From positions 2,604,001-2,668,000 of the forward strand of contig NZ_AP025592.1 of assembly GCF_023169965.1 (NCBI RefSeq): a stretch of 64,000 bases of DNA. Direction: 5' to 3'. The DNA comes from Anaeromyxobacter paludicola (GTDB taxonomy: Bacteria > Myxococcota > Myxococcia > Myxococcales > Anaeromyxobacteraceae). A program made the translations under genes and the position numbers. The notes below the pieces were generated by a model that ran no database searches, was not told the DNA's origin, and saw only the letters and a list, made by a program, of their open reading frames with translations. Shown piece after piece: positions 28,193-63,355 of the stretch (position 1 is the first letter of the stretch; each line of letters opens with the position of its first letter).

Positions 28193-28222
28193 GACGTGCA
28201 TCTCCACTCCCGTTGCAGCGGC

Positions 28223-29998
28223 TCACCCCGCGATGCGGGTGATGAGCACGTCCACCTTCTGCACCTTGCGCAGCCTGGCCGCGTAGTCCCGCAGCCCCGC
28301 CGCGATCTTCTCGCTCTCCAGCTCGCGGGCCAGCTTCTCGCGCGCGTCGGCGTACGGCTGGACGCTCGGCGGCACCTGCTCCACCACGCGCACCGCGTAG
28401 TGCTCGGCGCCGTCGGCGCTCGAGAAGAGCCGGTACTCGCCGTTCTTGGCGCCCGAGAGGACCTTGGCGAGGCCGGCCGGCAGCCCGTTGGCGCTCACCA
28501 CCTTGCCGTCGAAGCGGAGCTGCTGCTTCTCGGCGTCGAGCTGGCCGTCGGCGCTGGCGCGCATCCAGTTGAGGTCGGTGCCGCCCTTGAGCTTCTGGAC
28601 GGCCCCCTCGGCGGTCCGCCGGTCCTTGAACCCGAGCCCGTCGAGCCGGTACATGGCCGGCACGGTGAGCTCGCCCTTCTGCTTCTCGTAGCGCGCCTTG
28701 GCCTCGTTCTCGGTCACCTTCACGCCGGGCACGATGACCTTCTCGACGAAGACGTTGAGCGCGAGCACCCGCTCGTACTGCCGCACCTTGGCGCGGAACA
28801 CCGCGGTCTGGTCCAGCTTCCGCTCCGCCGCCTCGCGGGCGAAGAGCCGCGCGCCGAGCAGGGTCTCGAAGGTGTCCACCTTGAGCGGGTTGACCCGGTG
28901 CTCCTTGATGGGCCCGTCGAGGCCGTGGAAGAACTTCTTGGAGAGGTCGTCGGTCAGGTCGGCGATGGTCAGCGGCCGCTCGCCGCGGATGAGGGCCAGC
29001 GGGCGCGGATCCTTCGCGAGCGCCTGGAACCCGGCCTCGCCCCTGGCCTCGAAGTCGAGCTGCTTGAGGAGCGGCTCGTCCACCGTGGCGTACTTCTTCA
29101 CGAGCTCCTGGTAGAAGCGCCGGATCGCCTTGAACTGCTGGGACGAGAGCGACGCCGCGCGGGCCTCGGCGAGCGCCTTCGCGTCCTTGGGGTAGCGCTC
29201 GCCCTCGATCCGGAGGACCACCCAGCCGCCGGTGGTCTTCACGGGCTCGCTCACCTCGCCCTGCTTCAGCCTGGCGGTCGCGTGGGCCAGCTCGGGCAGG
29301 AGCTTCTTGCCCGACACGTAGCCCGGCTCGCCGCCCTCGGCCTTCTTCGCCGCCACCGCGGCCCTGGCGAGCTCGGGGAAGCCCTTGCCCTTGGCGAGGT
29401 CCTCGCGGAAGCGCTTCGCCTCGGCCTCCTGCTTGAACATCACCGAGCGGATCTTCCACTGCTTCACGGCCGCCTTGAAGCTCTTGTCCACCTCGGCCGG
29501 ATCCGGCTTCACCTTGGCCGTCACCTGCCCCTGCAGCATGCCGCGCAGCGTGGTGGCCTTGAACGCCTCCAGCGCCGACCGGGCGTCGGGCTGGTCGATG
29601 AGCCCCATCGTCTTCGCCTCGAGCGCGAGGAGCCGCACGTCCACGAGCCGGTCGAGGGTCGGCTTGTAGTCCATGTCCTTCGGCCTGGCGCCGTGGCGCG
29701 CGCCGGACTTGCCCGCCATGTGGGCCTGGCCGAGCGCGTCGGCGAGCTCCCCCAGCAGCACCGGGTCGTCCTCGCCGGCGACGCGCGCGATGGGACAGCC
29801 GGCCGTCTTCGGCGAGAAGAGCGGGGCGCGCAGCTCGCCCCCTTCACCCGGCGTGACCTGGCAATCCGCCGCGCCGGACGGGGCGGTCTGGAGGATGGCG
29901 GCGGCGCCGGGCGCCTTACCGGTGCCGGGCGACGCGGCGGCGAACAGCGGGAGGGCCCCGAGCAGCAGGCCGTTGAAGATCGAGGTGAGACGCATCAT
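28223..29998 (-). CDS. secreted parvulin-type peptidyl-prolyl isomerase (SurA/PpiC-like)
   Basis: 591 residues with signal peptide (GLLLGALPLFAAA). A SurA-N-like helical region (DYKPTLDRLVDVRLLALEAKTMG...) precedes a parvulin domain near residues 230-290 with GEPGYVSGKKLLPELAHATARLKQGEVSEPVKTTGGWVVLRIE. A second partial repeat (TVPAMYRLDGLGFKDRRTAEGAVQKLKGG) follows. It heads the run of cytochrome genes. Prolyl isomerases of this type are a regular part of Geobacter cytochrome-nanowire clusters and probably fold or deliver the secreted cytochromes. The start is the first of two adjacent ATGs. Confidence 0.85.
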   Translation of the reverse strand: MMRLTSIFNGLLLGALPLFAAASPGTGKAPGAAAILQTAPSGAADCQVTPGEGGELRAPLFSPKTAGCPIARVAGEDDPVLLGELADALGQAHMAGKSGARHGARPKDMDYKPTLDRLVDVRLLALEAKTMGLIDQPDARSALEAFKATTLRGMLQGQVTAKVKPDPAEVDKSFKAAVKQWKIRSVMFKQEAEAKRFREDLAKGKGFPELARAAVAAKKAEGGEPGYVSGKKLLPELAHATARLKQGEVSEPVKTTGGWVVLRIEGERYPKDAKALAEARAASLSSQQFKAIRRFYQELVKKYATVDEPLLKQLDFEARGEAGFQALAKDPRPLALIRGERPLTIADLTDDLSKKFFHGLDGPIKEHRVNPLKVDTFETLLGARLFAREAAERKLDQTAVFRAKVRQYERVLALNVFVEKVIVPGVKVTENEAKARYEKQKGELTVPAMYRLDGLGFKDRRTAEGAVQKLKGGTDLNWMRASADGQLDAEKQQLRFDGKVVSANGLPAGLAKVLSGAKNGEYRLFSSADGAEHYAVRVVEQVPPSVQPYADAREKLARELESEKIAAGLRDYAARLRKVQKVDVLITRIAG

Positions 29999-30092
29999 GC
30001 CCCCAGGTGACCAGCCGTGAAATACCGGTGGAACTACACCCCGCGTGCTGCTCAACCTACCTTGAATCCTGCTCTTTCTTCCCTGGCGGCGA

Positions 30093-31283
30093 TCAAGGAA
30101 TCTCGTTGGCCGCGCGGGCCATCGTCCCCCGTGCAGGCTTTGCGGGAAGAGGCCCTGAATCGGGGAGCTTGGGCCGGTCACCGAGCATCGCGTCCACCAC
30201 TCCGCGCGCCATCCGGCAGGTGAGCGCGCTGGCGGTGCTGACCCGGCCGACGCCGAAGAAGTAGACGCCGTCCTCGCCGGTGGCGTTCGAGGTGGAGGAC
30301 CAGGCGAGCTCCGCCGTCTGCCGGTCGAGGACGTACACGCCGAGCGCGACGCTCGGCGCGCCGGTCGTGCCGGACGCGTCGGCGAAGGTGCGGACCGTGC
30401 CCGAGAGGACCAGGTCGGCGCTCAGGAGCTCCAGGAGCGCCCGGGCGTCGTCGAGCCCGATGCCGCCGGTGGCGCCGAAGCGGTAGGTGAGCAGCTCCTG
30501 CCGGACCACGCCGGGCTCGAGGACGCGGACGGTCCCCGAGGCGATGAGCGGCCCGAGGAAGCGGAGCGCGGCGATCTCGCCGGCGTCGCGCCGCTGCGTG
30601 TCGTTCACGAAGGGCAGCACCGCGACCGTGCGGCGCGCCGCGTCGGAGAGGAACGGCGCGCTGTAGGAGCGGCTCGGCCGGATGGCGCCGCCGTCCCCGC
30701 ACGGCGCGCGGGGCACGGGGGCCCGGAGCGAGGCCGCGAGCGAGGCCGCGAGCTGCTCGAAGGCGCGGTCGCGCACCCGCTCCATGCTGCCCAGGATCCC
30801 GGCGCCGAGGAGCCCGGGGTGGTCCTTCCCGGTCCCGGCGTAGGCGTCGAGCCAGCGGATCTCCGGCTCGGGGTCGGTGGTGACGAGCCGCATCGTCAGC
30901 GCGAACCGGTACGGCGGCAGCGCCGAGTAGAGCTCGAGCGTCGGCACGATGATCCCGGTCGCGCCGGTCTGCTCGCGCAGCACCGTCGCCGCCTCGCGAT
31001 CGACCGCGCCGGTGTAACGCAGCCTCCGGCTCGCCAGCGCCTTCATCACCGCGATGTCGGGGACGAGCGGGAGCCCCTGCTTCTCCAGGGTCGCGCGCAG
31101 CGCCGCCGTGAGCTCCTTCGACGGCGCCGGGCCACCGTTGAGGTTCAGCACCGGGTAGAGCACGAGGAGCGGCGCGGGCGCGGTGACGGCGGCCGGCCTG
31201 GCCCCCCGACACCCTCCCAGCACCGCCGCCGCGAAGAGCCCGAGCGCGAGGGCCTTACTGGAAGAGCTTCCGGAGGAGGTCAT
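30093..31283 (-). CDS. LpoB/CsgG-like lipoprotein
   Basis: 396 residues; lipobox AAVLGGC. Two alpha/beta modules of the LpoB/CsgG type are seen: LLVLYPVLNLNGGPAPSKELTAALRATLEKQGLPLVPD with GATGIIVPTLELYS, and RTVAVLPFVNDTQRRDAGEIAALRFLGPLIASGTVRVLEPG with LLSADLVLSGTVRTFAD. Its ATG lies 29 bp inside the 3' end of the preceding gene, so translation is coupled. CsgG and LpoB relatives act in outer-membrane secretion pores or in periplasmic assembly, which fits a cluster exporting filament cytochromes, but no export function has been shown here. Confidence 0.75.
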   Translation of the reverse strand: MTSSGSSSSKALALGLFAAAVLGGCRGARPAAVTAPAPLLVLYPVLNLNGGPAPSKELTAALRATLEKQGLPLVPDIAVMKALASRRLRYTGAVDREAATVLREQTGATGIIVPTLELYSALPPYRFALTMRLVTTDPEPEIRWLDAYAGTGKDHPGLLGAGILGSMERVRDRAFEQLAASLAASLRAPVPRAPCGDGGAIRPSRSYSAPFLSDAARRTVAVLPFVNDTQRRDAGEIAALRFLGPLIASGTVRVLEPGVVRQELLTYRFGATGGIGLDDARALLELLSADLVLSGTVRTFADASGTTGAPSVALGVYVLDRQTAELAWSSTSNATGEDGVYFFGVGRVSTASALTCRMARGVVDAMLGDRPKLPDSGPLPAKPARGTMARAANEIP

Positions 31284-31851
31284 CGACCGCGTCCTCGGTC
31301 ACGTCGTTGAGCGGCTCGCCGCCGCCGGTTCCGAGGAGCCGCGCGGCCCAGGTCACGCCGCCCTTGGTGGAGGTGGCCGCCCAGACCACCTTGCCGGTCG
31401 CGCACTCCTGCATCTGGACGCCGACCGAGACCACGTTGGAGACGGCCGAGGTGGCGCGGACCTCGCCGTACTCCTTCACCACCCCGGTGATCACCGCGTC
31501 GGCCTTGAGCATCGGGCAGAGCTTCGCCATCTCCTCCGCGGTCGGGGACGAGGACGAGGTGAGCCCGACGCGCGAGATGGCGCGCGCGACCTCGCCGTTC
31601 GGCATCACGTACACGGCGCGCGTGGAGAGGAGCGCGTTGGAGAAGACCTCGCGGACGCGGTCCGCCGACTGCTGGTTCTGGGTCAGGTTCCAGAACGGCA
31701 TCACGGCGACGGTCTTCACGCCGGAGAAGTCCATGTTCGGATCGTGATACGGGCGGTGCTTCGCGCAGCCGGCGAGGAGCGCGAGCAGGAGCCATGGCAC
31801 CGCGAGCCTGGATCTCACGACCGACATGACGATGCGTGGAGAATACACCAT
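31255..31851 (-). CDS. GNA1162/DUF799-like lipoprotein
   Basis: 198 residues with lipobox LLALLAGC. The mature part, VKTVAVMPFWNLTQNQQSADRVREVFSNALLSTRAVYVMPNGEVARAI..., SPTAEEMAKLCPMLKADAVITGVVKEYGEV and VWAATSTKGGV, matches the GNA1162-type lipoproteins of the CsgG/LpoB superfamily. Start: ATG 31851 with GGTGA close upstream, or ATG 31827 without a clear ribosome-binding site. The frame overlaps the next gene by 29 bp and begins 5 bp after the beta-barrel stop. Likely forms an outer-membrane assembly with the following LpoB-like lipoprotein. Confidence 0.75.
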   Translation of the reverse strand: MVYSPRIVMSVVRSRLAVPWLLLALLAGCAKHRPYHDPNMDFSGVKTVAVMPFWNLTQNQQSADRVREVFSNALLSTRAVYVMPNGEVARAISRVGLTSSSSPTAEEMAKLCPMLKADAVITGVVKEYGEVRATSAVSNVVSVGVQMQECATGKVVWAATSTKGGVTWAARLLGTGGGEPLNDVTEDAVDDLLRKLFQ

Positions 31852-31855
31852 TTGA

Positions 31856-34027
31856 TCACCATAGGATGCTGAGTCCCACGGACAGGGTGCGCGATCGCGT
31901 CTCCTGCACGGGTGAGGTGGTGTGCAGGATGGTGTAGCTGGCCGTGGAGGTGACATTGCGTCGAATGATCCAGCGCAATGCGGGAGTGAAGATCTCGGTC
32001 GTGGTGTCCGACGCGGTGTCGAGCGTCCTCGCGTAACCGGCCGAGAGCTGGAGATCGCCGCGGAACGGCGAGTAGTTGAGCTGCACCGTCGCGAGCGTGC
32101 TCGGGCTGCCGCTCGGCACGACCAGCGTCCTGGACACCGTCGCGCTCCCGGAAAGGGCGTCGGTCGGGTGGAAGGCGACGCTGGCGTCCACCCGGGCCGA
32201 CTCGGAGTCGATCGGCTCCTCCGACTCCGACGAGTAGACCCGGCTCACCGAGGAGAGCCAGCCGAGCGTGAAGGAGACGAACCGGTTCGGCACGGCCGAG
32301 GCGGTCAGGTTGAAGGTGCCGGTCCAGGTGTCCTTGGTGGCGTCGTTGACCACGCTGCCGGCCGCGTTGGCCTGGGCGCTCAGCCCCTCCCACAGGTCGG
32401 CCCGCGCGAAGGCGCTGATCGTGTCGGTGAGCGCGCCGGCCGACTCGACGTACTGGCCGCTGTAGATGAGTGAGCTCGTGAGCGTGGGGAGCGGGGTCCA
32501 GATGAGCCCCGCGTTCCACTGGGTCTGGCCGGTGTGTCCGGTGCCGGCGTCGGAGTCCAGCCGGACGACGCGCTCGGTGGCCTGGAGCGTGGCCGAGAGC
32601 CGCTGCGACGCCCCGAGGCCGTTCGACACGCCGTAGGTGGTGACGTCCGGCGAGACCTGGCGGGCGAGGAAGACGGTCACGTCGTGGGTGAGGTTCGCGC
32701 GCCGCCAGAGCAGGGTGGTGGCGCTGGCGTTGAGCGCGGCGCTCGAGGTGGTCCGCTCGCGCGGGACGGCGCTCGCCGGCAGCACGAGGAAGGTCTGCAC
32801 CTCGGTGACGAGGACGCTCGCGAGGGTGGTGTCGAGGGTGCTCCCGGCGACGAGCGGGGCGGTGACCGCCTTGAGGTACCGCGCCTGCGTGCTCTGGATC
32901 GGGAGCTCGAAGCGGTTCTCGAAGGAGTCGAAGGTGACCGGCCCGGTGATCGGCACCGCGGTCCACTTCAGGTTGTCGTCGCTCCGGTAGACCGACCAGG
33001 TGTAGCTCCCGACCACCTCCGCGCGGACCTTGCGATCCACCCAGACCCGGACGGTGTTGACCGGGGTCACCGCGTCCGCGAACTGGACGCCCATCTCGCG
33101 CAGGTTGCGGTCGCCGGCGAGCGACGGGCCGTAGCCGATGTCGAGGGAGGCGCCGGTGGTGAGGCTCCCGTCCACCAGCGCCGGGTTGGGCGAGAGGGTG
33201 TCCGTCCCGGGCTCCGCCGGGAAGACGTCGACGAGCGACAGCCCGGAGAGCGGACGCTGCTGCTGGGTGATCGTCCCGGTGCCCACGTAGCTCGTGGAGA
33301 CGTTCTGGTTGTGGAGGGTGAGCGAGGCGTAGACGGTGGTCCGGTCCTCGAGGAGCCGCTCGCTGTAGGTGGCCTGCGCCGTCTGGTCGATCGAGTTCGA
33401 GACCGTGCCGCCGATGGCGTCGTCGGGGCGGTTCCAGCTCAGCACGTACTTGAAGTCCCACGGCGCCGGCGTGTAGAGCGCGGACAGGAGCGCCGCCGTG
33501 GTGGTGGTGTCGATCCGCGCGCGTTCCACGTCGTAGACGTGCCCGCGGGTCACCTGGAGCGTCACCTGCGGCAGCTCCAGCGGGCGCCACCCGACCACGC
33601 CGGACCAGGTCTCGTTCACCACCCGGGGAGAGCCGTAGGTCGCCTCGTCGCGCAGGTCGTAGCTGAGGCCGCTCGTGAGGTACGGGAGCGTGAGCGTCAG
33701 GCGGCCGTAGACGCCTCGCGCCCGGTCGTCGTCGAGGCTCGAGCCGGTGGGCCCGTCGCTCCAGGTCCGCTGGTCCCGGAAGAGCCCGCCCGCGGTGAGC
33801 GAGAGCGCCGGGCTCAGCCGCTCGTCGAGGGTGAGCCGGTAGTTCTGCAGGAGGGAGCGCGAGTCGAGGTGCGTGGTCCGGCCGGCCTGGTCGGTCGTGT
33901 CGGTGCTGGTCACGCTGTAGGTCGGCTCGAGGTACAGGCTGAGGATGTCGGCGCGCGCCGCGAAGGCGCCCGCCGCCAAGGCGAGCGCCAGCAACCACCG
34001 GCAAGCGGCTCGAGCCCCCCAGCTCAT
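31856..34027 (-). CDS. large outer-membrane beta-barrel protein with inserted F5/8-C-like domain
   Basis: 723 residues with a signal peptide (LLALALAAGAFAARA). Most of the chain consists of alternating polar/hydrophobic beta strands such as GVYGRLTLTLPYLTSGLSYDL, TTVYASLTLHNQNV and ATVQLNYSPFRGDLQLSAGYART. The last residues SVGLSILW end in an aromatic residue as outer-membrane barrels do. Residues about 290-390 (LDIGYGPSLAGDRNLREMGVQF... VRVWVDRKV... SVYRSDDNLKWTAV... ARYLKAV) resemble a discoidin (F5/8 type C) domain inserted between strands. It lies next to cytochromes and is a candidate outer-membrane conduit or export channel for the OmcS filament. Confidence 0.8.
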   Translation of the reverse strand: MSWGARAACRWLLALALAAGAFAARADILSLYLEPTYSVTSTDTTDQAGRTTHLDSRSLLQNYRLTLDERLSPALSLTAGGLFRDQRTWSDGPTGSSLDDDRARGVYGRLTLTLPYLTSGLSYDLRDEATYGSPRVVNETWSGVVGWRPLELPQVTLQVTRGHVYDVERARIDTTTTAALLSALYTPAPWDFKYVLSWNRPDDAIGGTVSNSIDQTAQATYSERLLEDRTTVYASLTLHNQNVSTSYVGTGTITQQQRPLSGLSLVDVFPAEPGTDTLSPNPALVDGSLTTGASLDIGYGPSLAGDRNLREMGVQFADAVTPVNTVRVWVDRKVRAEVVGSYTWSVYRSDDNLKWTAVPITGPVTFDSFENRFELPIQSTQARYLKAVTAPLVAGSTLDTTLASVLVTEVQTFLVLPASAVPRERTTSSAALNASATTLLWRRANLTHDVTVFLARQVSPDVTTYGVSNGLGASQRLSATLQATERVVRLDSDAGTGHTGQTQWNAGLIWTPLPTLTSSLIYSGQYVESAGALTDTISAFARADLWEGLSAQANAAGSVVNDATKDTWTGTFNLTASAVPNRFVSFTLGWLSSVSRVYSSESEEPIDSESARVDASVAFHPTDALSGSATVSRTLVVPSGSPSTLATVQLNYSPFRGDLQLSAGYARTLDTASDTTTEIFTPALRWIIRRNVTSTASYTILHTTSPVQETRSRTLSVGLSILW

Positions 34028-34032
34028 GGCGC

Positions 34033-35439
34033 CTAGTATCGCTCCGTCGCGAGCTTCACCTCGTAAGGATCGTCCGCGACGTCGATGGTGGAGAGCAGCC
34101 GGCGGCTGGTGAGGTCGAGGACCGCCACCGCGCGCTTCCCCGGCATCAGCGCGAAGAGCTGATCCTGGACGGCGTCGATGGCCATGCGCGACACCCAGCC
34201 CGGCAACTCGAAGGTGTCCACCGGGAGCATCGAGAAGGGGTCGAACACCTGGATCCGCGGGTCCCCGCCCCGCGCCACGTAGACGAGGTCGGTCCGGGAG
34301 TCCACCTCGACGCCCGTCGCGCCCAGCCCCACCAGGATCCGGCGCGTGAGGGCGAAGGTGGGGAGCGCGTACTCGATCATGTACGGCGAGCCGGCGTGAA
34401 TGACGTACAGGCGCGTGCCGTCGCGGCTGGTCTGGGCGAAGAGCGGCTCCGGGTCGGTCGGGATGGTGGCCACCACCGTCCGGCTAGCGAGGTCGATGAC
34501 GCTGAGCGAGTTGGAGCGGCGGTTCACCACCACCGCGCGGTTGCCCGAGCGCAGCAGGAGCACCGACCAGGGCGCCTCGCCCACGTCGGCCCGGCCCAGC
34601 TCCATGGTCGAGAAGCCGTCCACGAAGCTCGCCGTCCGCGAGCGGAAGTTGACGACGAGCAGCGTCCGCCGGTCCGGGAGGAGCACCAGCTCCCGCGGCT
34701 CGTCCCCGGCGCGGAGCGCGATCTGCGCGACCCGGTCGGCCCGGGTGAGGTCGAGGACCTCGAGCCGGTCCTCCCCGCCGAGCGCCACGTAGGCCCGGCT
34801 CGACGCGGCGTCGAGCGCGAGCCCGTAGGGCGATTGACCGAGCGCGACGTAGCCGCCGATGCGCTTGGTGCGGAGGTCGAACAGGGTGAGGTCGTTGCTG
34901 CGCGTGTTGACGCAGGCGCCGACGAGCGCCACCGGGGTGAGCGCGGGGACGGCGGCGTGGAAGCGCGGATCGAAGCGGAAGCCCGCCTCCAGCGAGGTCG
35001 CCACGTCGAGCGAGACCTCGAGCGCGAGGGCCTGGCCGGAGCGAAGCTCGAAGCCCACGTCGGCGCGGGACGGGTTGGCCTCGAGGAGCAGGTCGGTGCG
35101 GCCCTCCGGAGACTGGAGCCGCGGCCGGGAGAGCGTGAGCGCGAGCCCCACGTACTTGCCTCGGGGCAGCCGTCCCTGCGCGAGGAGCCGCTCGGGCGCG
35201 GGCTGCTCGGCGCCGCCGACCTCGGGGCCGAGGACCGTCAGCGGGATCGCCTCGCCGCTCTCGAGCAGCGCCGCGGCGCCGTCGATCTGGAAGGAGAGCC
35301 GGCCCGCCTCGTGGGCCAGCGGCAGGAGGTAGACGTAGAGCTGACCCTCGCCGTCCAGCGGCGGCGCGCTCACGGGCGGCCTTCCCGCCAGGGCGCAGCC
35401 GGCGAGCGCGAGCGTGCAGGCGAGGAGGCTCCAGCGCAT
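34033..35439 (-). CDS. YVTN-type beta-propeller lipoprotein
   Basis: 468 residues; lipobox LALAGC. Residues about 30-165 form a beta-sandwich-like region (LPLAHEAGRLSFQIDGAAALL, KYVGLALTLSRPRL). The rest is a seven-blade propeller with YVTN-style repeats: VNTRSNDLTLFDLRTKRIGGYVALGQSPYGLALD, SSRAYVALGGEDRLEVLDL, VVNRRSNSLSVIDLASRTVVATI, LVYVARGGDPRIQVFDPF. The gene begins 19 nt after the uridine run of the omcS terminator and 5 bp before the barrel gene. It is probably exposed on the outer membrane with the barrel protein. Confidence 0.82.
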   Translation of the reverse strand: MRWSLLACTLALAGCALAGRPPVSAPPLDGEGQLYVYLLPLAHEAGRLSFQIDGAAALLESGEAIPLTVLGPEVGGAEQPAPERLLAQGRLPRGKYVGLALTLSRPRLQSPEGRTDLLLEANPSRADVGFELRSGQALALEVSLDVATSLEAGFRFDPRFHAAVPALTPVALVGACVNTRSNDLTLFDLRTKRIGGYVALGQSPYGLALDAASSRAYVALGGEDRLEVLDLTRADRVAQIALRAGDEPRELVLLPDRRTLLVVNFRSRTASFVDGFSTMELGRADVGEAPWSVLLLRSGNRAVVVNRRSNSLSVIDLASRTVVATIPTDPEPLFAQTSRDGTRLYVIHAGSPYMIEYALPTFALTRRILVGLGATGVEVDSRTDLVYVARGGDPRIQVFDPFSMLPVDTFELPGWVSRMAIDAVQDQLFALMPGKRAVAVLDLTSRRLLSTIDVADDPYEVKLATERY

Positions 35440-35458: not shown

Positions 35459-35489
35459 AAAAAGGGGGAGCCGCTCGCGCGGCTCCCCC
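35459..35489 (-). terminator. intrinsic terminator/attenuator between omcS and downstream operon
   Basis: On the minus strand GGGGGAGCCGC pairs with GCGGCTCCCCC around the loop GCGA and is followed by TTTTT. It lies 24 nt after the omcS stop and ends only 19 nt before the next ATG (35439). No promoter fits into that gap, so the terminator most likely lets a fraction of transcripts read through. omcS would then be made in large excess over the assembly proteins. Confidence 0.9.
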
Positions 35490-35513
35490 CATCATACGAC
35501 CCTCAGCAGGAGG

Positions 35514-36932
35514 TTAGTCCTTGCCGTGGCACTTGTTGCACAGCGAGCGCTGGAAGGCGCCGAAGTCGGTCGCCGTGCGGCCGTAGTACGCGGCCTGGAG
35601 CGCCGTCGCGCCGCGGGCCTGCGTGTCGACGAGCGCGTTCGCGTTCGTGATGAACGTGTCGTCGTTGTTCCAGCGGACCATGCTGCTGAAGCCAGACGCG
35701 TGGGCGCGGTGGCAGGAGAGGCAGGTCACGTTCGACTTGTCGGTGGCGGTGAAGATGTTGTTCGCCGCCGGGTTCGCCAGCTTGCCCAGATCGGACACGG
35801 CGCCGCTGTTGCCGGTGACCGAGATGATCTTCGCGCTCTCGAAGGGCACCAGCGAGGTGTACTGGTCACCCGTCCCGGTGAAGACGCCGCTCGAGACGTA
35901 GGTGTTGTACACGTTGAACTGGCCGGGCTTGAGGGAGGCGTTGTTGCCGGCCGGGTGCTTCAGGCCGGTGCCGCCGAGCGCGCCGGACAGGTAGTTGTCC
36001 ATGTGGATGTTGGTGTGGCAGTTGCGGCACCACTCCGCCATGCCGTTGCCGTAGGCGACGCGCACTTCCTTCGACCGATCGAGACCAGCGCCCGTTTCGG
36101 CCTTGTTGTAGTCCGTCGGCGCGACGGCCACCGGCGGGTTGTAGGTGAAGGGCGAGGCCGGGTTGGAGGCCGGAGCGTAGCCCTTGCCGCCGAGGAGGCG
36201 GTAGGCGCCGATAGCCTGGCCAGCGGCCGGCAGGTTGCCGTACGAGCCCGAGGAGTAGATCGGGGCCGTGATGGCGGTGTTGTCGCTGCCCGGAGCGGTC
36301 GGGCCGGCCCAGTTCCAGGTGGTGCCGGTCGCATCGGTCTGCATGCGCGTGCGGCCGTGCGGATCGTGGCAGCTCGAGCAGGAGAAGACCTTCTGCCCGG
36401 TGGCGTCGAACGACAGCGTGCCGCCCGGGGCGGTCAGCAGCGTGTCGGCCGGGATCACGAAGTCCGCGGCGACGATGTTGTGCCCGTGACGGTTCTGGAC
36501 GTCCGAGGCGTTGCCGCCGCGCAGGAGCCAGCCGAAGTCGCCGCCCGGCGAGTAGTTCATGTTGGCGAAATCGGTGGCCGGACCGGTGTTGACGATCACA
36601 TAGGGCCTGGTGCTGCCGCCCGCCGTCGTATCGCCGTGGCAGATGAGGCAGGTGGAGGACTGATCCGCCCCCTGCAGCAGGAACGCCGGGACCGCGTCGT
36701 TCCAGGGGTTCACCTTGGTCGAGCGCGCCACGCCGTTGGAGGCGTTGTGCATCACGTGGCAGCCGTCGCAGGCGGCGACGCCGCCGGCGTGGAAAGTGCC
36801 CGTCTTCGAGGTGGCGACTCCGTTGAACCAGCCCGTTGCCGTGACGTCCTTGCCCGTGACCGCGGTCTGAGCATTCGCTCCGAACGCGAAGGCGGCGATG
36901 ATGGCCGCCGCCCACTGCATCCTGATTCTCAT
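35514..36932 (-). CDS. omcS: OmcS-like hexahaem nanowire cytochrome
   Basis: 472 residues, signal peptide cleaved after ANA (residue 21). Six CXXCH motifs in OmcS order: CDGCH (55-59), CLICH, CSSCH, CRNCH, CLSCH, CNKCH (465-469). Sequence blocks that I know from Geobacter OmcS are retained: FHAGGVAACDGCHVMHN, LLQGADQSSTC, YSPGGDFGWL, HGHNIVAADF, SCSSCHDPHG, IGAYRLLGGKGY, VAYGNGMAEWC, LKHPAGN, CLSCHRAHASGF, AAYYGRTATDFGAFQRSLC. The His residues that bridge haems in the OmcS filament are in these blocks. ATG 36932 has GGGGAG 6 nt upstream; longer in-frame starts lie in the leader. Likely polymerises outside the cell into a conductive filament. Confidence 0.93.
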   Translation of the reverse strand: MRIRMQWAAAIIAAFAFGANAQTAVTGKDVTATGWFNGVATSKTGTFHAGGVAACDGCHVMHNASNGVARSTKVNPWNDAVPAFLLQGADQSSTCLICHGDTTAGGSTRPYVIVNTGPATDFANMNYSPGGDFGWLLRGGNASDVQNRHGHNIVAADFVIPADTLLTAPGGTLSFDATGQKVFSCSSCHDPHGRTRMQTDATGTTWNWAGPTAPGSDNTAITAPIYSSGSYGNLPAAGQAIGAYRLLGGKGYAPASNPASPFTYNPPVAVAPTDYNKAETGAGLDRSKEVRVAYGNGMAEWCRNCHTNIHMDNYLSGALGGTGLKHPAGNNASLKPGQFNVYNTYVSSGVFTGTGDQYTSLVPFESAKIISVTGNSGAVSDLGKLANPAANNIFTATDKSNVTCLSCHRAHASGFSSMVRWNNDDTFITNANALVDTQARGATALQAAYYGRTATDFGAFQRSLCNKCHGKD

Positions 36933-37055
36933 TTGATACTCCCCAAGCAACGCCACCGATCGCCCCAGCGATCGGTGTCGGGTGATTGCAGGAACTTCGC
37001 TGAGCTTCTTCCCCAAACGAACTGCGGATTCGGCTCAACAGCAGGGCACGGTTGC
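36933..37055 (-). promoter_or_regulatory. omcS 5' leader with stem-loop before the ribosome-binding site
   Basis: Expected transcript start near 37055 from the sigma-54 promoter gives a 5' UTR of about 123 nt. At 36954-36977 a perfect 10-bp stem CACCGATCGC/GCGATCGGTG with a 4-nt loop ends 21 nt before the ATG, just ahead of GGGGAG. The same plan (sigma-54 promoter, 120-nt leader, final hairpin, GGGGAG) recurs at 37671-37791 and 40996-41118, although the primary sequence here is different. Confidence 0.6.
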
Positions 37056-37065
37056 CAGGCAGCTC

Positions 37066-37080
37066 AGCAACGACCGTGCC
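37066..37080 (-). promoter_or_regulatory. sigma-54 promoter of omcS
   Basis: On the minus strand the sequence is GGCACGGTCGTTGCT, matching GGCACG-N4-TTGC(A/T) perfectly. An inverted repeat GGCACGGT/ACCGTGCC (37045-37052 with 37073-37080) overlaps the promoter and could bind a regulator. Confidence 0.8.
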
Positions 37081-37506
37081 GGGCGGTAAGGTGCGAAATT
37101 CCGGGCGAAACACCAAAAGTGACGCGTCAGAAATGGGTCAGTTCACGCAGGATTGGGGAATTGACACAGGGGAAACCGCGCCATTGACCGTCCGAGAACT
37201 CCCACCTGCGCGCTCACGCGCCCACACGCCTCGATCCCGCCTGAATGTCGGCGCGCCGGGACCATTCCGTTCCCGCCGCCGGTCGGCTCGCCCGTGAGTC
37301 GCGCCGCAATTATCCGGACGCCATCCCAGCGCAATTTCCAATCCGCCGGTGGGCGGGTGCCGACCTGCGCGCGGTGGACGGCTCTCCAGATCGCCACGCT
37401 TCGCACGCTCCCCGAGGCGTTCCGCTCCGTGAACCCCGCGCGTTCCGGCCACCCCTCCGCCAGCTCCGGATGCACGCCGACGGCCCTGGCCAGGCACGCT
37501 TCCAGG

Positions 37507-37645: not shown

Positions 37646-37660
37646 GGCACGAAAGCTGCT
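37646..37660 (+). promoter_or_regulatory. sigma-54 promoter of the 12-haem cytochrome gene at 37792
   Basis: GGCACGAAAGCTGCT: the -24 element is perfect, GC is at -12 with correct spacing, and the -12 box is CTGCT. The predicted start is near 37671. Confidence 0.7.
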
Positions 37661-37670
37661 TGGCGACCCC

Positions 37671-37791
37671 GTGACTCACCAGCACGGCCACGGGATACCG
37701 CGAGCGCTGGGGTTGGGCCCCCGGCGCTCCAAAGCACGAGCAGTGAACGCACGGCACGCGCACGTCGCGCGTGACCATGGGGAGAAGGCAA
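37671..37791 (+). promoter_or_regulatory. structured 5' leader, copy 1
   Basis: About 121 nt. A 26-nt block at 37673-37698, starting GACTCACCAGCACGG, is identical to 40998-41023. Hairpin I (37702-37729) has outer arms GAGCGC/GCGCTC. Hairpin II (37755-37773) has arms CACGCGC/GCGCGTG and ends 18 nt before the ATG, followed by TGGGGAGA. In copy 2 hairpin I has a different sequence but still pairs, which argues for selection on structure. Confidence 0.65.
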
Positions 37792-40590
37792 ATGCGTCGT
37801 ATCTCGCTGGCACTGGCGCTCATGAGCGCCATCGCCGTGACTGGCTGCGGAGGGAGCAAGTCCTCCTCGAGCGCCGGGACGGCAAAGGGAGTTGGAGGGG
37901 CGTACTTCTACGTCAACATCTTCACCGCGCCGACGGCCGGCACCATCACCTCGGCCGACGGCAAGATCAACTGCGGCGGCGGGCAGACCGCCTGCGGCAC
38001 CAACGGGCAGACCCGCTACAGCTGGTACACCGACTCCACCAACACCACCGCGACCACGGTGGTGCTGACCGCCACGCCGCTCGCCGGCAAGGCGTTCGTG
38101 GGCTGGGGCGGCGACTGCACCGGCAACGGCACCTGCACGCTCACGGCGGGCAGCGACAAGTCGGTCGTCGCGATCTTCGCCGTCGCCGGGCAGCAGGGTC
38201 ACACGAACTTCCTCGACCCTGCCACCCACTCGGCGGCCTACGCCGCGTTCGCCGCCGGCGACAAGACGGCTCCGCAGTGCGTCAACTGCCACGGCGCCGC
38301 GCTCACCGGCATGGGCATCGCGCCCTCGTGCTTCACCTGCCACGACGTGAAGAGCGCCACGGCGAATCCGTTCGGCAACCACGGCGACACGACCGCGGCG
38401 GCGTGGGGCATTCACGCTCCCTCCGGCTGGAGCCAGGCCTGCCAGCGCTGCCACACCAGCCAGGGCTTCCAGGACTACATGGGCGCGCTCGCGGCGCCCA
38501 CCGAGTCGAGCCCGTCGGCCGACTACCTCGGCACCACGTTCCTCTCCACCAACACCCTCGTGGCCGGCACCGGCGTCGCGAACTCCTACGCCACCGGCTC
38601 GCTGCAGTGCCAGACCTGCCACAACAGCGTCACCGACCCGCTCTCGGCCGGCGTGACGAAGCTCACCTTCCCCTCCGGCGTGCAGGTCACGACCGACAAG
38701 GTCACCGCCCTCTGCGGCCAGTGCCACGAGGCGCGTGAGTCCACGGTCAGCATGAACACCCTCGTCGGGACGACGGCGGCGGACGCGCAGATCAACGCGG
38801 CTGGCACCAGCTTCAAGAACCCGCACTACCGCGGCGCCGCCGCCACCATCTACGGGTCGGTGGCCCAGGGCTGGGCGCAGTACGCCGGCAAGATCTACAC
38901 CGGCCAGAACCTCCACGGCGGGGTGGCCAGCTGCAACACCTGCCACGACGTGCACACCGGCGAGGTCGCCGGCGTCGTGAGCGCGAACACCTGCGGCAAG
39001 TGCCACTTCAAGGCCGACGGGACGCCGGTCGCGAACTTCGCCGAGCTCGAGGCCAACCGGCAGTACGGCTTCGAGGGCGACATCGACGGCAACGGCAAGG
39101 TCGAGGGTCTCGACGTCGAGATCAACGGCCTCAAGGCGACCCTCCTCGCCGCCATCCAGGCCTACGCGGTGAACGTGGCCGCCCAGCCGGGCATCTGCTT
39201 CGACGACGCCACCTACCCGTACTTCCTCAAGCACACCGGCGCTTCCGGCGCCTGCTCCTCCGCCGAGCTCACCGCGGCCGCGGCGTACAAGGCCTTCACG
39301 CCGCGCCTGATGCGCGCCGCCTACAACCTGAAGTTCGCCTCGACCGAGTTCGGCGCCTGGGCGCACAACCCCCGCTATGCGATCGAGATCCTCTACGACG
39401 CCATCACCGATCTCAACGCCGCCCTCGGCGTGAACGCCGTGCCGTTCAACGGCGTCCGCAGCTTCCAGGGCCACTTCGGCGGCTCCGAGGTCAAGGCGGC
39501 GGGCTCCGACGCGTTCACCGACTGGAACTCGACCGGCACCATCCCGGCGGCCTGCTCCCAGTGCCACGGCGCCCAGGCCGGCCTCACCAACTTCATCGCC
39601 AACCAGAACACCGCGCTGACCACCCCGTCGATCACCGGCTTCCAGTGCACCACCTGCCACGTGGCGGTGAACGCGAGCGCGGCGAACTTCAAGGGCATGC
39701 GCACCGACGTGACGACCCTCTACTTCCCGCCGGCCAAGACCGACCCGACCCAGCAGACGACGCTGGCCGCGACGGTCTTCCCGAACGCGAAGGACCGGGT
39801 CTGCGCCTCCTGCCACACCGGCCGCGAGAACAAGACCACCATCGACCTCGCCATCGGCACCAAGACGCCTGGGACGTTCTCGGTCTCCTTCAAGAACCCC
39901 CACTACCTCGGCGCCGCCGGCGTGATGTTCGGCTCGACGACCCACATGCTGTACGAGTACCCGGGCCAGACCTACGCCACCACGCCGGTGTTCTACGGCA
40001 CGACGGGCGCCGCTCCCGGCCCGTACGGCTCGCCGCACGGCGGCGGCTGCACCGGCTGCCACAACCCCCAGGGCACGCAGCACGGCTTCGGCATCGATCT
40101 CGCCACGACGGTTCCCGGCGGGACGTACTACGGCGTGCCCAACACGCTGGCGTGCGACGGCTGCCACACCAACGGCTCGCACGGTGACCACCGCCTCGAG
40201 CCGGTGAAGGCGAACGTGGCCGCCCTGGCCGCCGAGCTGCTCGTGAAGATCAACGCCTACCAGGTGGCCGGCGGCCAGAACGCGGTCTGCTACGCCGGCG
40301 GCGCCTATCCGTACTGGTACGTGGGCACGGTGCACCCCGGCGGCCAGTGCGACGCGACGGAGACCACCGGCTACGGGTCGAAGTGGGACGCCAAGACCGC
40401 CAAGGCCGTCTTCAACTACCAGTGGTCGCAGAAGGAGCCGGGCGCCTACGCGCACAACTACGACTACGTCGCGCAGGCGCTGATCGACTCCATCATGGAC
40501 CTCGATGCGGCCGCGGTGCTGCCGTGCGACGCGCACGACTCGCTCTGCATCAGCGGGGTCGGCGGGAGCACGCTCATCACCCGCCCGTGA
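37792..40590 (+). CDS. 12-haem outer-membrane lipoprotein cytochrome with InlB-repeat-like N-terminal module
   Basis: 932 residues. Lipobox IAVTGC (Cys19) followed by GGSKSSSSAG. Residues about 33-115 are the beta module FYVNIFTAPTAGTITSADGKINCG ... LTATPLAGKAFVGWGGDCTGNGTCTLTAGSDKSVVAIF, then the first haem pair CVNCH...LTGMGIAPSCFTCH. Twelve CXXCH in total (last CDGCH). The paired segments GAWAHNPRYAIEILYDAI and GAYAHNYDYVAQALIDSI, and repeated SFKNPHY motifs, show an internal duplication seen in Geobacter outer-membrane cytochromes. It is transcribed alone from a sigma-54 promoter and ends at a strong terminator. Likely an outer-surface metal reductase or filament docking protein. Confidence 0.9.
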   Translation: MRRISLALALMSAIAVTGCGGSKSSSSAGTAKGVGGAYFYVNIFTAPTAGTITSADGKINCGGGQTACGTNGQTRYSWYTDSTNTTATTVVLTATPLAGKAFVGWGGDCTGNGTCTLTAGSDKSVVAIFAVAGQQGHTNFLDPATHSAAYAAFAAGDKTAPQCVNCHGAALTGMGIAPSCFTCHDVKSATANPFGNHGDTTAAAWGIHAPSGWSQACQRCHTSQGFQDYMGALAAPTESSPSADYLGTTFLSTNTLVAGTGVANSYATGSLQCQTCHNSVTDPLSAGVTKLTFPSGVQVTTDKVTALCGQCHEARESTVSMNTLVGTTAADAQINAAGTSFKNPHYRGAAATIYGSVAQGWAQYAGKIYTGQNLHGGVASCNTCHDVHTGEVAGVVSANTCGKCHFKADGTPVANFAELEANRQYGFEGDIDGNGKVEGLDVEINGLKATLLAAIQAYAVNVAAQPGICFDDATYPYFLKHTGASGACSSAELTAAAAYKAFTPRLMRAAYNLKFASTEFGAWAHNPRYAIEILYDAITDLNAALGVNAVPFNGVRSFQGHFGGSEVKAAGSDAFTDWNSTGTIPAACSQCHGAQAGLTNFIANQNTALTTPSITGFQCTTCHVAVNASAANFKGMRTDVTTLYFPPAKTDPTQQTTLAATVFPNAKDRVCASCHTGRENKTTIDLAIGTKTPGTFSVSFKNPHYLGAAGVMFGSTTHMLYEYPGQTYATTPVFYGTTGAAPGPYGSPHGGGCTGCHNPQGTQHGFGIDLATTVPGGTYYGVPNTLACDGCHTNGSHGDHRLEPVKANVAALAAELLVKINAYQVAGGQNAVCYAGGAYPYWYVGTVHPGGQCDATETTGYGSKWDAKTAKAVFNYQWSQKEPGAYAHNYDYVAQALIDSIMDLDAAAVLPCDAHDSLCISGVGGSTLITRP

Positions 40591-40614
40591 GCTCGTAGCT
40601 CATACCTGTAGTCC

Positions 40615-40646
40615 GGCCCCCGCGGATCCGTCCGCGGGGGCCTTTT
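40615..40646 (+). terminator. intrinsic terminator after the 12-haem gene
   Basis: Perfect 11-bp stem GGCCCCCGCGG/CCGCGGGGGCC, 6-nt loop ATCCGT, then TTTT. It starts 25 bp after the stop codon at 40590 and isolates this gene from the next sigma-54 unit. Confidence 0.95.
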
Positions 40647-40970
40647 CATTCTGAGTGAATGACCCCTTCGCGCGAGGGTCGGTCCCTCCGATGGACTAGT
40701 CCTCGTCCGCGACGCCTCCCGCGGGCCCGCGAGCCGAGCTCGGTTCGTTCCGAAGTGAACGGGACAGGCAGGAACGCCCTGTGCCGAGCCCGAATCGTGG
40801 CGTTTGCGCCCCAGCCACTCCCGACCGTTCTTGCGAAGTTCACCCGGAGTCACTGTCGAGCCACCGCCCTCCGCGCGCCCCAGCCCATGCGGCAAATCCC
40901 CCAAGACACGACGCCACCCCCTTCCGGAGTTTCCGGTGGCAACCCGCGCGTTTGCGCCGTCACCGCGCGG

Positions 40971-40985
40971 GGCACGTTCGTTGCT
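40971..40985 (+). promoter_or_regulatory. sigma-54 promoter of the OmcA/MtrC-like gene
   Basis: GGCACGTTCGTTGCT matches the consensus fully (GGCACG-N4-TTGCT). Predicted start near 40996, giving a leader of about 123 nt. The remainder of 40647-40970 is non-coding. Confidence 0.8.
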
Positions 40986-40995
40986 AAGCCGCTCC

Positions 40996-41118
40996 CCGAC
41001 TCACCAGCACGGCCACGGGATACAGGCGAACACCGGGTGGGCACCCGGGGTTCGGCAGCAAACCGCAGCGAACGTAAGGGCACGCGCCTCGTCGCGCGTG
41101 CCACTGGGGAGACAGCAC
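40996..41118 (+). promoter_or_regulatory. structured 5' leader, copy 2
   Basis: About 123 nt. It shares the 26-nt 5' block (40998-41023) with copy 1. Hairpin I (41027-41054) has arms CGAAC/GTTCG plus inner CCGGGT/ACCCGG, different in sequence from copy 1 yet fully paired. Hairpin II (41079-41102) has perfect 9-bp arms GGCACGCGC/GCGCGTGCC and is followed by TGGGGAGA and the ATG. The coding start (MRRISLALAL) is also shared. Confidence 0.65.
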
Positions 41119-44100
41119 ATGCGTCGTATCTCGTTGGCACTGGCGCTCATCGGTGCCGTGGCCGTTTCCGGATGCGGGAGGAGCGGTTCCTCCGCCTCGT
41201 CCGGCCAGAAGGGCGCGAACACCGATACGTTCAACATCAACATCTACCAGGCGCCGGTCGGCGGCTGGATCACCTCGGCAGACAGCCGGATCAACTGCGG
41301 CGCCTCCGATCTGGGCACCCCGGTTGCGGACGCTGACGGCGTCCTCCACTCGACCCCGACATACATCACCGGCCACGCCGTCTGCCCGAAGCAGACGACC
41401 TACCCCTACGGCACCAGCGTGACGTTCACCGCGACCGCCGACACGGGCTTCACCTTCATCACCTGGGCGGGTGACTGCGCCGGCTCGGCCGCCACCTGCA
41501 CGCTCACCGGCAAGGCCGACGCGGCCCCGATCGCGATCTTCGCGAAGGCAGGCTCGGCGGGCCACGCGGCCGTCTTCTCGTCCGCGGAGCACGGTGTCGC
41601 GTTCGGGAAGTTCCTCCAGGGCGACGCGACCGCCCCGAAGTGCACCAACTGCCACGGCCCGACGCTGCTCGGCGCCGGCATCGCGCCGGCCTGCAGCCCG
41701 TGCCACCAGGCTGCCAACGCCGCGAACGTGACTGCCGGTCTCGAGTCCTGCGCCAAGTGCCACGCGGCTGCCGGTACCACCGGCATCAACAACGGCGCGG
41801 ACCACCAGGCGCTCTACAACAAGTTCGCGCACCCGACGAACGCCACCCTGAACGCGTCCATCGTCAGCGTCAGCACCAACACGACGTCGCAGGTCGCGAC
41901 CGTGACCTTCACCCTGACCAAGAACGGTCAGCCTTACACGGGCGATGTGACCAAGCTCGGCCAGAAGACCGTGTACGCGGCCCGGTTTGACCGCGCCACC
42001 GGCAAGGTCGTCGAGTACTTCTCGCTGTCGAAGCTCGCGCCCACCGCGACGCCCGGCACGTTCACGGCCAAGAACAATGCGACGCCGGCGCCGGCGACCC
42101 CGCCCGTCACGCCGGTCCTGGCGACTTTCGCGCCCGAGGCTTCGGACGCGTTCGTCTACGCGTACTTCGCCGAGAACCCGACCCTCTGGCCGAACCTCAA
42201 GAACTACAAGATCTACGGGAACGTCACGAGCGCCGCGATGACCTTCAAGGCCACCGGCCAGACGGATCCGTGGACCTACACCTCCACCGCCAACGTCGCG
42301 GGCTGCCAGAAGTGCCACCCGACGCCGTACATGAAGCACGGTTACCGCGCCGCCGTCGTGGCCGGCCTGCCCGACTTCATGGCCTGCAAGGCCTGCCACG
42401 CCGACACCCGCGTGGGCGAGGACTTCATCTTCCAGCTCACCTACGACAACTTCCCTTGGATCGCCGCCAACGGGGAGAACTACACCCCTGCGATCGAGGC
42501 GCAGTACGCCTACAACGCGAGCGTGATGAACGACACGCACATGGCGCACTCCGGCGAGATCAAGTACCCGCAGGAGATGTCGAACTGCGTGGTCTGCCAC
42601 GAGGGTAACCTCGCCACCATTACCGCGGACCAGAACTTCAACGGGAAGGTGTGCAAGAGCTGCCACCCGACGACCTCGCCGGTCGATGCCGCGGCGCCGA
42701 GCTTCGCGAACGTGACCGACGGCGCCAAGCTGGGTCAGAAGCTCGCGTACCACAACTTCAACTGGCAGAACGGCACGGTCCTCGAGGGTACCGCCCCGAA
42801 TCAGACCGAACTGGCCTGCACCGCCTGCCACAGCGATTCCGCTAAGGACGTCAACTGTGACGCCAACTACAACTGCACCGTGGATCAAACCAGCGGCGCG
42901 ATCGACGGTAAGGGCCCGTTCATGTACGGATCGTACGTCCCGCTGTTCAAGGACATCCACTCCGGTCTGAACAAGGCCATCTACGCTGCCGACGGGAGCC
43001 GCTACTCGGCCAGCATGCAGACGACCGTTGGCACGACCTCGTTCGCGTCCAACAAGCTCACGCTCGCGTTCAGCGTCAGCAACGTCCCGTCCAACGTGAC
43101 GATCAAGCCGACTGTCACGGCCAGCCTCTACGGCTACGACACGAAGGACTTCGTCGTCAGCGGCCACAGCAGCCAGTTCTCGGACAAGACGCCGAACCTC
43201 GAGTTCAGCGAGGGCGCCTGCCTCCGCGGCACCGGCGGGACCACCGGCGTGCCCTGCAAGCCGTCGAACACGGCGCGCCTCAACGTCACCCCGCTCGCCG
43301 CGGCCGGCAACTCCAACTGGACGGTCACCATCGACCTGTCGACGTGGGCTACCAAGCTCTCGGACGGCTCGGTCAAGCGTATCGAGGTCGGCTTCCTGCC
43401 GGACGCCACGCTAGTGACTGGCGTTGCTCCGAACACCGTCTCGACCTCGATCGCGATCTCCGGCCTGGCCGTGACCTACGACCTCGGCGCCGGCGCGGTC
43501 GTCCAGGACACCGTCGGCAAGGGCGCCAACGCCATCGTCGACGCGGCCAAGTGCAACAACTGCCACGACGCGCTCGGCACCACCTTCCACAGCCCGAGCT
43601 ACGGCTCTGCGGGCGTGGTCGGCTGCCGCCTCTGCCACTTCGTTGGCACCGGTGGGTCGCACCTCGAGATGCAGTCGCGCTCGATCGACTCGTACGTCCA
43701 CTCGATCCACTCGTTCCAGGCGTTCGACATCGCGAACGTCAACTTCGCGGATCCCGTCGCGGCGCTCGAGTATGAGGATCACATCACGGCCACGTACCCG
43801 ATGTTCACGACGCTGAACTGCGAGTCGTGCCACACCGCGGGTTCCTACGGCGTGCCCGACCAGAAGAAGTCGATGCCCGGCATCCAGTCGGCCTCCGCCT
43901 CGATCACCGGCAAGACCCGGGCGATCAACGGCGTGCCGAGCGTCGTCACCGGCCCTGCCTCCAGGGCCTGCGGCGGCTGCCACCGCGCCGAGCTCATCAA
44001 GGAGGACGCGGCCGGCGCGCTCAACGCGTTCGACGATCACGCTGGCGCGTCGTTCGGTTACCGCCAGGTCTCCGATGCGGCGCCGAAGACCATCACCGAC

Positions 44101-44136
44101 AAGTGGAACGACATCGTCATGAAGGTGCTCCCGTAG
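41119..44136 (+). CDS. OmcA/MtrC-family 12-haem outer-membrane lipoprotein cytochrome
   Basis: 1005 residues; lipobox VAVSGC (Cys19). After a Ser-rich linker comes the beta module FNINIYQAPVGGWITSADSRINCG ... FTATADTGFTFITWAGDCAGSAATCTLTGKADAAPIAIF and the haem pair CTNCH...LLGAGIAPACSPCH. Then follow a beta-rich domain (LNASIVSVSTNTTSQVATVTFTLTKNGQPYTGDV) and the OmcA/MtrC-like haem core with two more beta segments. The C-terminal stretch GCRLCHFVGTGGSHLEMQSRSIDSYVHSIHSFQ is characteristic of that family. I count 12 CXXCH. OmcA/MtrC proteins are terminal outer-surface reductases for metals and humics. Transcribed alone from sigma-54, with leader copy 2. Confidence 0.9.
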   Translation: MRRISLALALIGAVAVSGCGRSGSSASSGQKGANTDTFNINIYQAPVGGWITSADSRINCGASDLGTPVADADGVLHSTPTYITGHAVCPKQTTYPYGTSVTFTATADTGFTFITWAGDCAGSAATCTLTGKADAAPIAIFAKAGSAGHAAVFSSAEHGVAFGKFLQGDATAPKCTNCHGPTLLGAGIAPACSPCHQAANAANVTAGLESCAKCHAAAGTTGINNGADHQALYNKFAHPTNATLNASIVSVSTNTTSQVATVTFTLTKNGQPYTGDVTKLGQKTVYAARFDRATGKVVEYFSLSKLAPTATPGTFTAKNNATPAPATPPVTPVLATFAPEASDAFVYAYFAENPTLWPNLKNYKIYGNVTSAAMTFKATGQTDPWTYTSTANVAGCQKCHPTPYMKHGYRAAVVAGLPDFMACKACHADTRVGEDFIFQLTYDNFPWIAANGENYTPAIEAQYAYNASVMNDTHMAHSGEIKYPQEMSNCVVCHEGNLATITADQNFNGKVCKSCHPTTSPVDAAAPSFANVTDGAKLGQKLAYHNFNWQNGTVLEGTAPNQTELACTACHSDSAKDVNCDANYNCTVDQTSGAIDGKGPFMYGSYVPLFKDIHSGLNKAIYAADGSRYSASMQTTVGTTSFASNKLTLAFSVSNVPSNVTIKPTVTASLYGYDTKDFVVSGHSSQFSDKTPNLEFSEGACLRGTGGTTGVPCKPSNTARLNVTPLAAAGNSNWTVTIDLSTWATKLSDGSVKRIEVGFLPDATLVTGVAPNTVSTSIAISGLAVTYDLGAGAVVQDTVGKGANAIVDAAKCNNCHDALGTTFHSPSYGSAGVVGCRLCHFVGTGGSHLEMQSRSIDSYVHSIHSFQAFDIANVNFADPVAALEYEDHITATYPMFTTLNCESCHTAGSYGVPDQKKSMPGIQSASASITGKTRAINGVPSVVTGPASRACGGCHRAELIKEDAAGALNAFDDHAGASFGYRQVSDAAPKTITDKWNDIVMKVLP

Positions 44137-54087: not shown

Positions 54088-54172
54088 TCGAAGCCTCCCC
54101 CGAACAGGCGAGCGCCGCGCACTTCACGCTGGGAGAGCGCACGGCGAGCCCAGACCCGAGCGGCTTTGCGGC

Positions 54173-54187
54173 GCAACCTTCGTGCCA
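54173..54187 (-). promoter_or_regulatory. sigma-54 promoter of the cytochrome gene at 51799-54087
   Basis: On the minus strand TGGCACGAAGGTTGC: full match to TGGCACG-N4-TTGC. Expected start near 54161 gives a 74-nt leader. It shares the 344-bp intergenic region 54088-54431 with a divergent promoter; no gene is seen between them. Confidence 0.8.
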
Positions 54188-54359
54188 CCGGACGAGCCGC
54201 CGATCTGGCCGACAATCGAGGCCATTCACCCACCGAGAACGACGGTCACTGGGTGTTATGCCGCAAGTTGTGTTTTTTTGACGCATTGCGCGGGCTCGCA
54301 GCCCTGCGCCGCGCCGGTAGATCCGGCAGCTTACCCTCACCATCGGGGGAGCTCGCCGG

Positions 54360-54374
54360 GGAGCAATTCTTGCA
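54360..54374 (+). promoter_or_regulatory. possible sigma-54 promoter of the cytochrome operon at 54432
   Basis: GGAGCAATTCTTGCA: GG-N10-GC spacing is right and the -12 element TTGCA is perfect, but the -24 box is poor beyond GG. It lies 58 bp before the ATG. Confidence 0.45.
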
Positions 54375-54431
54375 GTGCGCCCCCGTTCGACCGCTGCGCG
54401 CCGTTGGATGGCGCGGCGCCGGGGGGACTCG

Positions 54432-56189: not shown

Positions 56190-56208
56190 CCAAAGGCCCC
56201 ACTCGATC

Positions 56209-63044: not shown

Positions 63045-63111
63045 CGTGACCTCCCTGCTCGCCCTCCGGCAAGACGATCGCCGGACGAGGCCGGCGAGCG
63101 TCCGGCGACGA

Positions 63112-63126
63112 TGCAAAGGTAACGCC
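63112..63126 (-). promoter_or_regulatory. possible sigma-54 promoter of the cytochrome gene at 60786-63044
   Basis: On the minus strand GGCGTTACCTTTGCA: GG-N10-GC spacing and a perfect TTTGCA -12 element, with a weaker -24 box. The transcript would begin near 63101 with a hairpin (CGCCGGAC/GTCCGGCG, 63079-63107) at its very 5' end. The gap 63045-63412 holds no gene. Confidence 0.5.
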
Positions 63127-63355
63127 CTCACCCATACCGCGGGTGCGTCTCACTCCAAGTGCGCGCGCGGACGGGCGGGGCTGCGCCGTGTTGCCCCTTA
63201 CGACGCAAGCCCCGATCCACGCAGATTGTGCGGAAGCGGCGGGCGCGAGACAGATTTTGCGGCGCCGCGGCGGGCCTGCCGGGGGCGCCTCTGCCGCTCC
63301 CGCGCGCGCCCATGGCACTCAATTGGATTGCGACCGGCGCCTCGAGCCCGCGCCG

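Follow-up and report, generated by a model that had tools for sequence, protein, structure and literature searches.

The gene at 35514-36932 on the minus strand of the window (the whole 64,000-nucleotide stretch of Anaeromyxobacter paludicola DNA that was analysed) is an intact open reading frame, running from an ATG at 36932 to a stop at 35514, and codes for an OmcS-family hexahaem cytochrome of 472 amino acids with six CxxCH motifs in the translation. A phmmer search against all PDB chains returns one match, OmcS (6ef8/6nef), with an E value of 1.2e-75 spanning all 407 residues, which excludes chance. The first-pass annotation had assigned the protein to the OmcS family with the OmcS motif order and spacing. 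The assignment is borne out by the single PDB match and by the OmcS fold of the AF2 model, and the motif order by the six CxxCH and the full-length homology, whereas the spacing agrees approximately and not exactly, with intervals between motif starts of 38/93/99/89/72 in OmcS and 40/90/117/102/61 in the window protein.

The protein begins with a predicted Sec signal peptide (codons 1-21, MRIRMQWAAAIIAAFAFGANA, 36870-36932, minus strand; from the translation, with a putative cleavage site) followed by a clade-specific N-terminal extension (codons 22-46, 36795-36869, minus strand). In nearly all homologues the signal peptide is cut directly before, or a few residues from, an F-H-x-G-G sequence, whereas in the window protein about 25 additional residues separate the signal peptide from FHxGG, a feature on which the first-pass annotation did not remark. 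Among the family members, about 20-35 extra N-terminal residues, variable in sequence, are seen only here and in the three proteins most closely related to the window protein. The AF2 model of the window protein, built from a 67-sequence family alignment (single-sequence AF2 reached a pLDDT of only 30), has a pLDDT of 69 and a pTM of 0.75. Comparison of the model with 6ef8_A gives an E value of 1e-27 and TM scores of 0.72/0.79 with Foldseek, and a Z score of 37.1 with an rmsd of 2.8 over 373 aligned residues with VIA-align, which supports an OmcS subunit fold. The extension is disordered in the model (pLDDT ~32); its end directly precedes the first axial histidine and lies 16 residues ahead of the inter-subunit histidine, and it probably sticks out of the filament near the subunit junction.

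In OmcS every one of the 12 haem ligands is a histidine; 11 belong to the subunit that holds the haem, and the remaining one, at haem 5, is contributed by the adjacent subunit (PMC6584659; PMC7096707). The equivalent positions were compared in an alignment of 141 rows (140 homologues and 6ef8). OmcS contains 17 histidines, and 11 of these (His 2, 13, 51, 110, 144, 147, 243, 257, 332, 335, and 404) are histidine in every row that covers them; a metagenome-assembled homologue outside the 141-row set (L016) has an asparagine at OmcS position 335. The corresponding intra-subunit ligands of the window protein are His48, 59, 99, 151, 189, 192, 306, 326, 408, 411, and 469. In the column of OmcS His16, 118 rows have histidine and 22 have a different residue, and the five other OmcS histidine columns hold it in only 5 to 80 rows. 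One candidate for the missing ligand, OmcS His63, is ruled out with histidine in only 75/141 rows. The inter-subunit donor we take to be His16, as is reported to be described by Wang et al. 2019 and as the pattern of loss in the family suggests. His62 of the window protein (codon at 36747-36749, minus strand) aligns with OmcS His16 in the 141-row alignment and is the putative inter-subunit ligand. Residues V6, A7, M15, N17, and L37 co-vary with His16, and at these the window protein matches the His16-bearing consensus; at S18 it has an alanine. When aligned to OmcS all 12 axial histidines are present, the inter-subunit position included, and the loss of several of them, which the first-pass annotation had named, along with a missing inter-subunit haem contact, as the finding that would speak against its proposal, is not seen.

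This check is not trivial because paralogues of the same family without His16 exist. The 22 rows concerned lack His16 and its co-varying residues and keep the 11 intra-subunit ligands intact (examples are L150:2217-3542, L151:491-1891, L151:2073-3446, L048:11341-12654, L091:11271-12632, L066, L080, L081, and L146). These paralogues fall into four clades in a quick tree and require at least two changes on a reduced, more careful tree. By geometry they could accept the inter-subunit bond and not donate it, and they may therefore be bases or anchors of filaments, or monomers. His16 is the sole axial ligand that the family discards, which makes it, together with its co-varying residues, a testable marker to separate wire-forming from non-wire paralogues, a distinction that homology searches fail to make (PMC12977616).

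The genes located 3' of the OmcS-family gene, all on the minus strand, keep the published order oscD-E-F-G-H-I-J. The oscD homologue (34033-35439) encodes a YVTN/YncE-type β-propeller lipoprotein (Pfam YNCE, E 3e-9, and synteny). The oscE-position gene (31856-34027) encodes a 723-amino acid secreted protein, probably an outer-membrane barrel, placed by its conserved position; a Pfam search of this protein gave zero matches. The oscF-position gene (31255-31956) encodes a GNA1162-like lipoprotein (PF05643, E 9e-8, and synteny) and the oscG-position gene (30093-31283) an LpoB-like lipoprotein, placed by synteny and by a PF13036 match below the cut-off (E 7e-4). The oscH homologue (28223-30181) encodes a PPIC-type prolyl isomerase (Pfam Rotamase_2, E 6e-24, and synteny); the true starts of the oscF-position and oscH genes probably lie inside the open reading frames. 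Counting of haem motifs gives 26 CxxCH for the oscI homologue (26237-28207) and 16 for the cytochrome at the oscJ position (24899-26227). In papers that cite the description of the osc cluster by Shen et al. 2025 (doi 10.1016/j.chembiol.2024.12.013), OscI is the 26-haem GSU2495, and OscH is placed in folding, OscE/F/G in secretion, and OscD in morphology (PMC13194489; PMC12977616). The first five downstream genes keep their order behind OmcS-family genes in Geobacterales, Nitrospirota, Acidobacteriota, Rokubacteria, Desulfobulbaceae, and others. Judged by sequence and gene order, the window gene heads a cluster homologous to the osc (omcS-companion) genes already published.

Further cytochromes are encoded near the cassette. 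Six large multihaem proteins with 7-15 CxxCH each are encoded beside it (37771-44136, 51799-59181, and 60786-63131), several of them MtrC-like or with GSu_C4xC motifs and lipobox-like N termini, resembling an extracellular cytochrome island. The genome also has PpcA homologues with 64% and 61% identity. At the other end of the window a gene with a Shedu SduA C-terminal domain (1617-3068, plus strand; Pfam E 5e-21) is a candidate anti-phage defence gene.

The region upstream of the subunit gene contains a σ54-like -24/-12 element, CGGCACGGTCGTTGCT (37066-37081, minus strand), identified by pattern search, in which CGGCACG-N4-TTGCT is placed 134-149 bp upstream of the ATG. The same element occurs at about -146 to -164 in all three clade-mates, counted for L032 and L033 from the true start codons; it was not found upstream of the second copy in this genome, nor at seven loci from other clades. 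A generic σ54 consensus with 2 mismatches shows no enrichment in the window, with 23 sites against 17.9 expected. The narrower GGCACGNNNNYTGCK pattern, which was picked after the sites had been seen, gives 4 sites against 0.58 expected, and because of that post hoc choice the conservation in three orthologues is the better evidence. The four GGCACGNNNNYTGCK sites (37066-37080, minus; 37646-37660, plus; 40971-40985, plus; 54172-54186, minus) each precede a multihaem cytochrome gene by ~85-135 bp, in the correct orientation, and are a possible cytochrome regulon. A σ54 factor gene is present in the genome, and no σ70 promoter was found for the subunit gene. These observations are consistent with a σ54-type promoter driving the subunit gene, and the regulated promoter claimed in the first-pass annotation finds support in the conservation of this predicted element. 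A c-di-GMP (GEMM) riboswitch has been reported for Geobacter omcS. Rfam gives no such match in the 64-kb window and nothing credible upstream of the subunit gene. The leader carries a perfect 10-bp inverted repeat, CACCGATCGC-TGGG-GCGATCGGTG (36954-36977, minus strand), immediately ahead of the subunit gene's ribosome-binding site.

The gap between the subunit gene and oscD is occupied by a predicted intrinsic terminator (35459-35490, minus strand), a hairpin of 12 pairs followed by a T tail, with a folding energy of -43.3 kcal/mol and a z score of -4.25. It was found by folding and a custom scan, and the pattern scan did not list it. Hairpins of differing sequence occupy the same position between subunit gene and oscD in 9/13 loci compared, so that strong expression of the subunit with weaker expression of the machinery looks like a conserved design. 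The attenuated downstream operon proposed in the first-pass annotation agrees with both results.

A careful maximum-likelihood tree places the four N-extended Anaeromyxobacteraceae proteins, from this genome, A. oryzae (L033), A. oryzisoli (L032), and an uncultured Anaeromyxobacter (L034), in one clade with support of 100/97. Joining this clade with the OmcS clade is rejected (AU p 0.0195), as is joining it with the Geobacter oscC-position clade (AU p 0.0335), both p-values being somewhat generous because the groups were named after the first tree had been inspected. The genomes compared exclude G. sulfurreducens itself (best 72%), and OscC is represented in the tree by the genes at the oscC position in other Geobacter-type genomes, standing in for GSU2501. 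In G. sulfurreducens the OmcS-family gene adjoining the secretion block is oscC (GSU2501), listed as periplasmic in published work (PMC13194489; PMC12977616). The window gene consequently occupies the oscC slot and groups with neither Geobacter clade. The protein is not an orthologue of OmcS and belongs to a separate clade. The N-extended clade is seen in four genomes only, and in most of the matching Anaeromyxobacteraceae genomes the family members belong to other clades.

The same genome contains a second complete osc-type cassette ~45 kb away (G000:C1:2673260-2685266, mostly in L111), placed 17-21 kb past the high-side end of the window. In the careful tree its subunit groups with those of Geobacter-type genomes (100/100), and its machinery proteins cluster with other Myxococcota cassettes. 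Compared with Geobacter sp. AOG1, the second cassette shows 76% identity in the subunit, against 32-39% in OscD/E/H and 60% in OscF. Between the second copies of this genome and A. oryzae the values are 80% for the subunit, 41-48% for the machinery, and 60% for OscF, and in any case evolution is slower in the subunits of the second-copy clade than in the machinery. A subunit identity of 76% across phyla, set against 80% inside the family, still suggests, from sequence comparison, that the subunit gene was transferred alone, without its machinery, and that exchange of wire subunits can proceed without exchange of the export machinery.

The family membership and wire-competent anatomy of the window protein are well supported. 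With moderate confidence, we favour the reading that it polymerises, as a lineage-specific version of the subunit, into an OmcS-type cytochrome filament. This reading draws on the OmcS match and fold, the 12 histidines with their co-varying residues, the osc cassette, the PpcA homologues, the attenuator, and the σ54-like element and factor; the placement outside the OmcS clade and the extra segment next to the interface count against it. Transcription would start from the σ54-type promoter, and the terminator 3' of the gene would hold expression of the machinery below that of the subunit. The subunit would be exported by Sec and then loaded with haem, its folding would be assisted by the OscH-type prolyl isomerase, and it would transit through the OscE/F/G proteins, roles that are assigned here by analogy with the published G. 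sulfurreducens work. Head-to-tail polymerisation would follow, with His62 as sixth ligand to haem 5 of the next subunit (proximal His408), forming a continuous haem chain to which OscI/OscJ and PpcA-like cytochromes would supply electrons from the periplasm. Polymerisation and conduction are what we infer for the protein, and it seems likely that the organism actually makes wires of it. The earlier statement that the gene implies filament building is too strong because OmcS alone among the G. sulfurreducens paralogues is known to polymerise (PMC12977616). Even for Geobacter, whether cells physiologically require OmcS is a matter of dispute (PMC11077965).

The slot directly ahead of oscD, together with the periplasmic listing of GSU2501, fits a non-polymerising OscC-like companion, carrying electrons in the periplasm or at the outer surface and helping to feed or assemble wires of the second-cassette paralogue. 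The position outside the OmcS clade, the extension near the subunit junction, and the presence of a more typical second paralogue in the genome point the same way. However, the inter-subunit histidine and its co-varying residues are kept in a family that readily loses non-essential positions, a grouping of the protein with OscC is also rejected (AU p 0.034), and it has its own complete cassette without any other OmcS-family gene, which leaves this reading improbable though of some weight. Less probable again, and doubtful, is that the extension is a propeptide, blocking assembly in the periplasm until a protease removes it on export, with a mature wire like that of OmcS. The extension is variable and of low order (pLDDT ~32), stands immediately ahead of the conserved F-H start, and ends in AQA or SQA in two clade members, but a cut motif is not common to all four, the others having KTGT and ALTG. 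The second cassette could make the window gene a decayed or unexpressed copy, which is very unlikely given the intact open reading frame and cassette, the retention of all ligands, the conserved promoter-like element and terminator, and the orthologues in three other genomes.

If the favoured polymerising subunit does assemble, the Anaeromyxobacteraceae, which serve in the bioremediation of metals and organohalides, would have a cytochrome wire, and that wire would test how much change its interface tolerates. A broader and tentative proposal, which we hold to be possible and no stronger, is that some Anaeromyxobacteraceae have two complete, separately evolving wire systems, one with a lineage-specific subunit whose flexible N-terminal extension at the subunit junction would give decorated or maturation-controlled wires and the other with a Geobacter-exchanged subunit and lineage-inherited machinery.

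The occurrence of the OmcS type outside the Geobacterales, the headline of the first-pass annotation, is correct and already known, since OmcS homologues in Anaeromyxobacter have been published (Portela et al. 2024; PMC10954620) and a filament model of an OmcS-like protein from Desulfurivibrio appeared in 2025 (PMC12545173). The present survey also finds the family in Nitrospirota, Acidobacteriota, Desulfobulbaceae, and others. In the openly licensed literature no description was found of the N-extended clade, of doubled cassettes with an exchanged subunit, or of His16 loss as a marker, and the novelty of the window protein is at the level of a variant. The homologues of Anaeromyxobacter dehalogenans belong to the same protein family and the same bacterial family as the window protein (PMC10954620). 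With OmcS (GSU2504; PDB 6EF8 and 6NEF) the window protein shares the hexahaem composition, motif order, the 12 axial histidine positions, the fold, and 42-48% identity; it differs in lying outside the OmcS clade, in the 25-residue N-terminal extension, and in other loop lengths, and its filament is a predicted one. OscC (GSU2501) shares the slot directly upstream of oscD, whereas its clade is separate and the C terminus of its Geobacter-type members is different (e.g. KCHSTVPQ). The published osc cluster, as described in the citing papers, has, in matching order, genes for the propeller, the envelope proteins, the prolyl isomerase, the 26-haem protein, and additional multihaem proteins; compared with that description, this genome has two complete copies, one OmcS-family gene per cassette, and a subunit clade confined to the Anaeromyxobacteraceae.
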